A stretch of 36,703 nucleotides of DNA, from NCBI GenBank assembly GCA_017444245.1, contig JAFSXD010000102.1, positions 1 to 36,703 of the forward strand. Reading direction: 5' to 3'. Shown one piece after another: positions 570-704 of this stretch. This DNA comes from Selenomonadaceae bacterium (lineage in GTDB: Bacteria > Bacillota > Negativicutes > Selenomonadales > Selenomonadaceae). How positions within the stretch are numbered: the first letter of the stretch is position 1; the number at the start of each line of letters is the position of its first letter. Below the pieces are notes generated by a model. That model ran no database searches. It saw only the letters and a program-made list of their open reading frames with translations, and was not told the origin of the DNA. The position numbers were made by a program, and so were the translations under genes.

Positions 570-704
570 CCCGTTTCTGTAAGCGAGAGCAAAAAGCCTA
601 TATCGCGTGAGCGGGGGCGGAGCGAAACGGTATCCCCCACTCACAAGAAGTCAATCCACGCGATGTAGGCTTGTCGTGCTTCTGAAAATACCGACGGGGA
701 TTGA
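570..704 (+). ncRNA. Candidate structured RNA with nested stems and a pseudoknot
   Basis: Four nested helices can be drawn by eye. CCCGT (570-574) pairs with ACGGG (694-698). AAGC (581-584) can pair with GCTT (678-681). A 13-bp helix joins 594-606 and 660-672 with a single G-U pair. An 11-bp helix joins 607-617 and 634-644 with one C-A mismatch. In addition TCAATCC (651-657), unpaired inside the 13-bp helix, is fully complementary to GGATTGA (698-704) outside it, which would make a 7-bp pseudoknot. A T-rich run follows at 729-739. I do not recognise the family: it is not tmRNA, RNase P, 4.5S RNA or an obvious 6S RNA. It could be an independent small RNA or an elaborate enolase 3' UTR or terminator. 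Strand is assumed from the enolase direction. Confidence 0.5.

Follow-up and report, generated by a model that had tools for sequence, protein, structure and literature searches.

A gene-less, structured element downstream of eno in a Selenomonadaceae genome is likely a non-autonomous mobile element of the IS200/IS605 superfamily

The window, a stretch of 36,703 nucleotides that forms contig C78 of the genome (1.64 Mb, 77% complete) of a Quinella-like rumen bacterium of the Selenomonadaceae, carries eno, which ends at position 546 (stop codon 544–546) and encodes an enolase 93% identical to that of Quinella sp. 2Q5. The stop codon is followed by TTTTAAC (547–553, + strand), which contains the target of TTTAAC-type IS200/IS605 elements, and directly 3' of this motif lies a gene-less element of ~153 nt (554–707, + strand, boundaries ± 3 nt) with three conserved hairpin domains. 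Its limits were set by repeat comparison, since copies at unrelated loci share a 5' edge at TTTAAC and a 3' edge after GATTGAAA. Beyond the element, a long inverted repeat that is almost perfect (GGGGTTAGGGAAAAGT...ACTTTTCCCTAACCTC, 739–815) gives a spurious microRNA match; similar intergenic repeats (GGGATTAGGG/GGGGTAAGGG) are found in congeners (L083, L098, L099). A class-III aminotransferase gene follows (818–2103, − strand), split over two frames (818–1792 and 1831–2103) by a frameshift or an assembly error.

The element is composed of a left end (554–593), a central hairpin and a long-range helix that closes its 3' end, all on the + strand. The left end contains a guide-like AATGAGTC followed by the P1 hairpin (CTCCCGTTT-CTGT-AAGCGAGAG, 568–589). 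The inner hairpin P2 (609–642) carries a conserved internal motif, GGGCGGAGCGAAACGGTATCCC, and no part of the element is better conserved from Quinella to Lachnospiraceae than the core between the strands of P2 (CGGAGCGAAACGGTAT, 618–633, with the pattern GGCGGAG..AA..CGGTATCC), though this core is mostly unpaired. The helix P3 joins a 5' arm, TCAATCCACG (651–660), to a 3' arm, CGGGGATTGA (695–704), at the 3' end of the element. The folding energy is −58.6 kcal/mol for the 152-nt element and −39.9 for its dinucleotide shuffles, which gives a z of −4.5; in a 221-nt frame z is −2.64.

A preliminary description of positions 570–704 had proposed a structured RNA of no recognised family, built from a 13-bp helix stacked on an inner hairpin, an outer CCCGT/ACGGG helix and a 7-bp pairing of pseudoknot type. 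The two stacked helices are present, at 594–608/658–672 (15 pairs including one G-U) and 609–617/634–642, and in the window the 7-bp TCAATCC (651–657)/GGATTGA (698–704) pairing does cross the former. The crossing arm itself covaries, with 6 of its 7 pairs changed on both sides. The 13-bp helix shows no compensatory change across five Quinella copies and is missing from the consensus fold of 23 Lachnospiraceae copies, so the pseudoknot topology stands as a prediction for the Quinella lineage only and not as a conserved feature; of the two crossing helices, the 7-bp arm alone is conserved and covarying. The outer helix (570–574/694–698) could not be upheld because it competes with P1 (568–576/581–589), which covaries in 9 of 9 pairs.

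Covariation was assessed over the 36 copies that the covariance model R2 gave over the loci collected, in an alignment that was fitted to the model, so that the figures lean towards it. Compensatory changes are found in P1, P2 and P3. Two-sided changes affect 24 of 31 pairs, a level reached by 0 of 500 shuffles, with 107 two-sided cells versus 35.4 in the shuffles; 91.5% of cells are paired, where the shuffles give 82.3% and sliding the partners gives no more than 53.6%. By helix, all 9 pairs of helix 1 (P1) are changed on both sides and 92.7% of cells are paired; helices 2 and 3 (P2) have 94.9% and 97.1% of cells paired, with 5 of 9 pairs of helix 2 changed on both sides; and helix 4 (P3) has 6 of 7 pairs changed on both sides and 85.7% paired. 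The switches in P3 are visible by eye, from CCACG/CGTGG to CCACAGTC/GACTGTGG to TCACAGTC/GACTGTGA. Wobbles in P1, P2 and P3 are G-U (25, 22 and 21) rather than A-C (7, 4 and 2), and the folded strand is therefore the sense strand; an additional helix, P3b (GTCG/CGAC), lacks this bias (7 G-U versus 13 A-C). These pairings exceed chance, as had been argued from the window, and no family of Rfam 15 matches at its gathering score, HEARO, group I introns and CRISPR repeats included. Relaxed thresholds gave only spurious microRNA and snoRNA matches and one CRISPR-repeat match of 12.7 bits. The 3' end of the element does resemble type I-C CRISPR repeats (CGTGGATTGAAAC), but a CRISPR repeat was rejected: GTGGATTGAAA occurs only twice in the genome, once in the element and once in coding sequence. 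No tRNA or tmRNA was found.

Copies are dispersed over unrelated loci, in low number and without terminal inverted repeats or target duplication. The genome of the window has a further copy, 84% identical, after rpmB, and congeners carry copies in the glgC/glgD interval, after pfkA and in the ylxR/infB interval. The covariance model R1 recovered full-length copies in 4 of the 66 genomes of the genus, including that of the window (3 of the 65 others), and a P1-only match in a fifth genome. A lead from blastn and a search with R1 identified a human-gut scaffold with a diverged copy; this scaffold is filed as phage and carries bacterial chromosomal genes. Five more gut scaffolds hold homologues. 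One of the six contains ychF, lgt and the mra/fts cluster, and its YchF is 75–78% identical to that of genome family f104, which we take to be Lachnospiraceae; 32 of the 397 genomes of this family have a match at E ≤ 0.01, some of them left-end-only or chance matches. The records MT835706, MT835696, MT835994, MT836829 and MT836632 (L144–L148) bear the title 'Bacteriophage sp.' but consist of bacterial chromosomal sequence, with ychF, the mra/fts cluster, a glutamine synthetase gene and proA. A phylum-wide R2 scan scored 7 candidates per genome and was not exhaustive, so absence in it carries little weight. Scans of viral contigs with 6 patterns gave no true copy, and the matches L100 and L141 from those scans, like L103, L105, L106 and L136 from phylum pattern scans, are chance matches in coding sequence.

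Several copies (L161, L182, L192, L186, L170) are truncated at the 5' or 3' side or decayed, and copies therefore decay in place. Solo 3'-terminal stretches of ~35 nt, lacking P1 and P2, occur at L099:1501–1540 (− strand, GTCGTGCTCCTGAAACCACCGGCGTGGATTGAGAC), where an IS605 right end and an ORF of 142 aa precede the stretch, and at L134:1501–1531 (TTACCGACTGTGGGTTGAAAC).

By our ORF and orientation calls, which are crude, every copy with an assignable upstream gene (about 26) lies in the sense direction. The genes on both sides usually run the same way, and a ribosome-binding site often follows directly. Neighbours recognised by sequence include eno, rpmB, glgC, pfkA, ylxR/infB, ychF, glnA, ilvN/ilvC, purF, rplQ, nusG/rplK, rpsB, efp and icd. 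The position behind enolase, which had been proposed as a guide to homologues in Negativicutes, is incidental; copies follow some 30 different genes, in Lachnospiraceae as well.

The first ~40 nt of the element align with ISEfa4-like IS200/IS605 transposons at their left end, and the same hairpin lies immediately 5' of tnpA or tnpB at seven public loci. TTTAAC stands at the spacing seen in the element at five of these: a gut element with tnpA and tnpB (L135), a Fusobacterium tnpB (L142), a Lachnospiraceae TnpA gene (L166), a Paenibacillus plasmid where the match lies just 5' of the start of a TnpB-like ORF (L193), and a Staphylococcus capitis tnpA+tnpB unit annotated as 'IS200/IS605-like element ISEfa4 family' (L194). 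At the remaining two, 5' of a Mycoplasmatota transposase (L143) and of a Peptoclostridium tnpB (L196), the motif is TTTATC. Common to the left ends at the transposase loci are GAAGTC/GAATTC ahead of the hairpin, a loop of the CTATA type and a trailing ATGAAT. Among the copies of the element, TTTAAC occurs within 30 nt of the 5' edge in 16 of 34, compared with 1.0% of random 30-mers from the same loci (P about 1e-23), and looser forms in 26 of 34, compared with 4.6%; in several copies the stop codon of the host gene is supplied by the TAA within TTTAAC. The family left end is thus found 3' of the family target motif.

The right end departs from this pattern. Related transposons end in a CTATA-type hairpin followed by TTCAC or TTCAA, whereas the element ends in GATTGAAAC and has neither the CTATA-loop hairpin nor the TTCAC/TTCAA cleavage motif; the base of P3, TCAA/TTGA, could serve as a guide/cleavage pair. 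Beyond the TTTAAC, spacing, guide-like GAAGTC/GAATTC, P1 with its CTATA-type loop and trailing ATGAAT that it shares with ISEfa4-like transposons (tnpA+tnpB, TTTAAC target), the element differs from them in having no tnpA or tnpB and in the replacement of the usual right end by P2 and P3. PATE and MITE derivatives of IS200/IS605 are short, gene-less and dispersed and keep an IS-type end. The element shares all these traits and differs in its unrecognisable second end and in the conserved unpaired core within P2.

A comparable arrangement is seen in two other genomes (G382 and G387, with 11 and about 29 matches), which contain a dispersed three-hairpin element of ~105 nt (L101, L102, L108–L126). 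It has a P1 with the same loop, of the CTATA type (TTCTATAA), a similar P2 (CAGTGGGGG...CCCCCACTG) and a third hairpin, but ends in GAGTTCAC (GTTCAC, the usual right end of the group) and lacks the GGCGGAG..CGGTATCC core. L101 and L102 have no Rfam match. In our view this is an analogous element of the IS200/IS605 type, possibly related to the present one; R2 gives it 34–36 bits. IStrons, which join a group I intron to an IS (PMC4227781), likewise unite IS ends with structured RNA, but the element is only about 150 nt long and matches no group I intron.

We consider it likely that the element is a non-autonomous, gene-less mobile element of the IS200/IS605 superfamily, similar to MITEs or PATEs. 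The reading has its demonstrated basis in the family left end, the TTTAAC target, the dispersal and the covarying sense-strand structure, and it keeps the compact, conserved structure of the preliminary description while recasting the supposed RNA as a mobile or dispersed element that begins with an IS200/IS605 left end. IS200/IS605 elements have subterminal hairpins with a guide 5' of the hairpin, and their transposases target the lagging-strand template (PMC6006769). A Y1 (HUH) TnpA acting in trans would recognise two structures of the single-stranded lagging-strand template, P1 and, on the 3' side, P3, and insert the element after TTTAAC, with P3, through its TCAA/TTGA base, acting as the right-end hairpin. 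The sense bias after stop codons can be explained by lagging-strand insertion, since this template carries the sense of genes running with replication, as most genes would, together with purifying selection. The extra conserved core of P2 may, more tentatively, confer a separate function on the transcribed copy, for example protection or protein binding.

Several observations count against a mobile element. A minimal transposase substrate would not need so elaborate a P2 and core, the 3' end is unusual, copy number is low, and no usable empty site was found by a search with the eno flanks or by megablast and blastn. Among the four Quinella carriers, all with incomplete genomes, no Y1 transposase was found in that of the window (G000, 77% complete), G023 or G024; a partial one is present in G029. 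A matching TnpA is encoded in one Lachnospiraceae genome (L166).

The non-standard 3' end GATTGAAAC leaves room for an orphan guide RNA of the TnpB type (omegaRNA or reRNA), in which the last nucleotides of the scaffold, GATTGAAA, would form the internal pairing P3, host DNA on the 3' side would be the guide and TTTAAC the TAM; a TnpB acting in trans would then cut the empty donor site, so that the element stays. TTTAA is a known TAM, and the reRNA of S. islandicus ends at the right end of the transposon with the guide next to it (PMC11043419). The element matches this plan in its TTTAAC 5' flank, in a structured RNA that ends exactly at the 3' boundary and in its sense position in transcribed regions, and TnpB genes are present in its own genome. 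Still, we judge this reading unlikely. The characterised reRNA of the group ends in UUCAC (PMC11043419) and the element in UUGAAAC; the upstream genes are host genes, with no tnpB among them, and no tnpB was found that has the module of the element as its 3' end. The 3' flanks of the genome's own TnpB genes (L088, L089) and of L135 are dissimilar to the element, and an omegaRNA of these TnpBs was rejected. A guide-RNA function and mobility can coexist and are not exclusive: a gene-less transposon might use host read-through transcripts to turn its 3' flank into a guide RNA, with a co-resident TnpB guarding its insertion sites, but this, too, we hold to be unlikely.

A domesticated cis-acting regulatory RNA of 3' UTRs or intercistronic regions, influencing mRNA stability or translation of the downstream gene, would account for the sense orientation between genes that run the same way, of which several (eno, rpmB, rplQ, nusG/rplK, rpsB, infB, efp) are highly expressed, and for the frequent placement directly before a ribosome-binding site. 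It is improbable given that the host genes are unrelated, the loci vary among genomes, the flanks match an IS target, and any match at all is confined to 5 of the 66 genus genomes, one of these P1-only. REP sequences of the TnpA-REP (RAYT) family are likewise dispersed intergenic hairpins related to Y1 transposases; with GT[AG]G at the hairpin foot, lengths of 21–65 nt and high copy number as their defining features (PMC6006769), they make a very poor match for an element of about 150 nt at low copy number whose hairpin foot has neither GTAG nor GTGG. A chance fold of ordinary intergenic sequence, for which only the z of −2.6 in the 221-nt frame might speak, is refuted by the conserved copies and their covariation and has a negligible probability.

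The element thus combines an IS200/IS605 left end with a conserved, covarying internal structure that is absent from Rfam, and no published description of it was found in the part of the literature that we covered. Such combined elements have spread among Firmicutes of the gut and the rumen and reached transcribed positions beside core genes of translation and glycolysis, and a structured sequence that was previously unclassified can now be placed in a defined class of mobile elements. If the guide-RNA reading were true, the element would parasitise RNA-guided TnpB systems without carrying any gene. The case also advises caution with covarying 'ncRNA' candidates in general, which can be the ends of transposons that move as single-stranded DNA.
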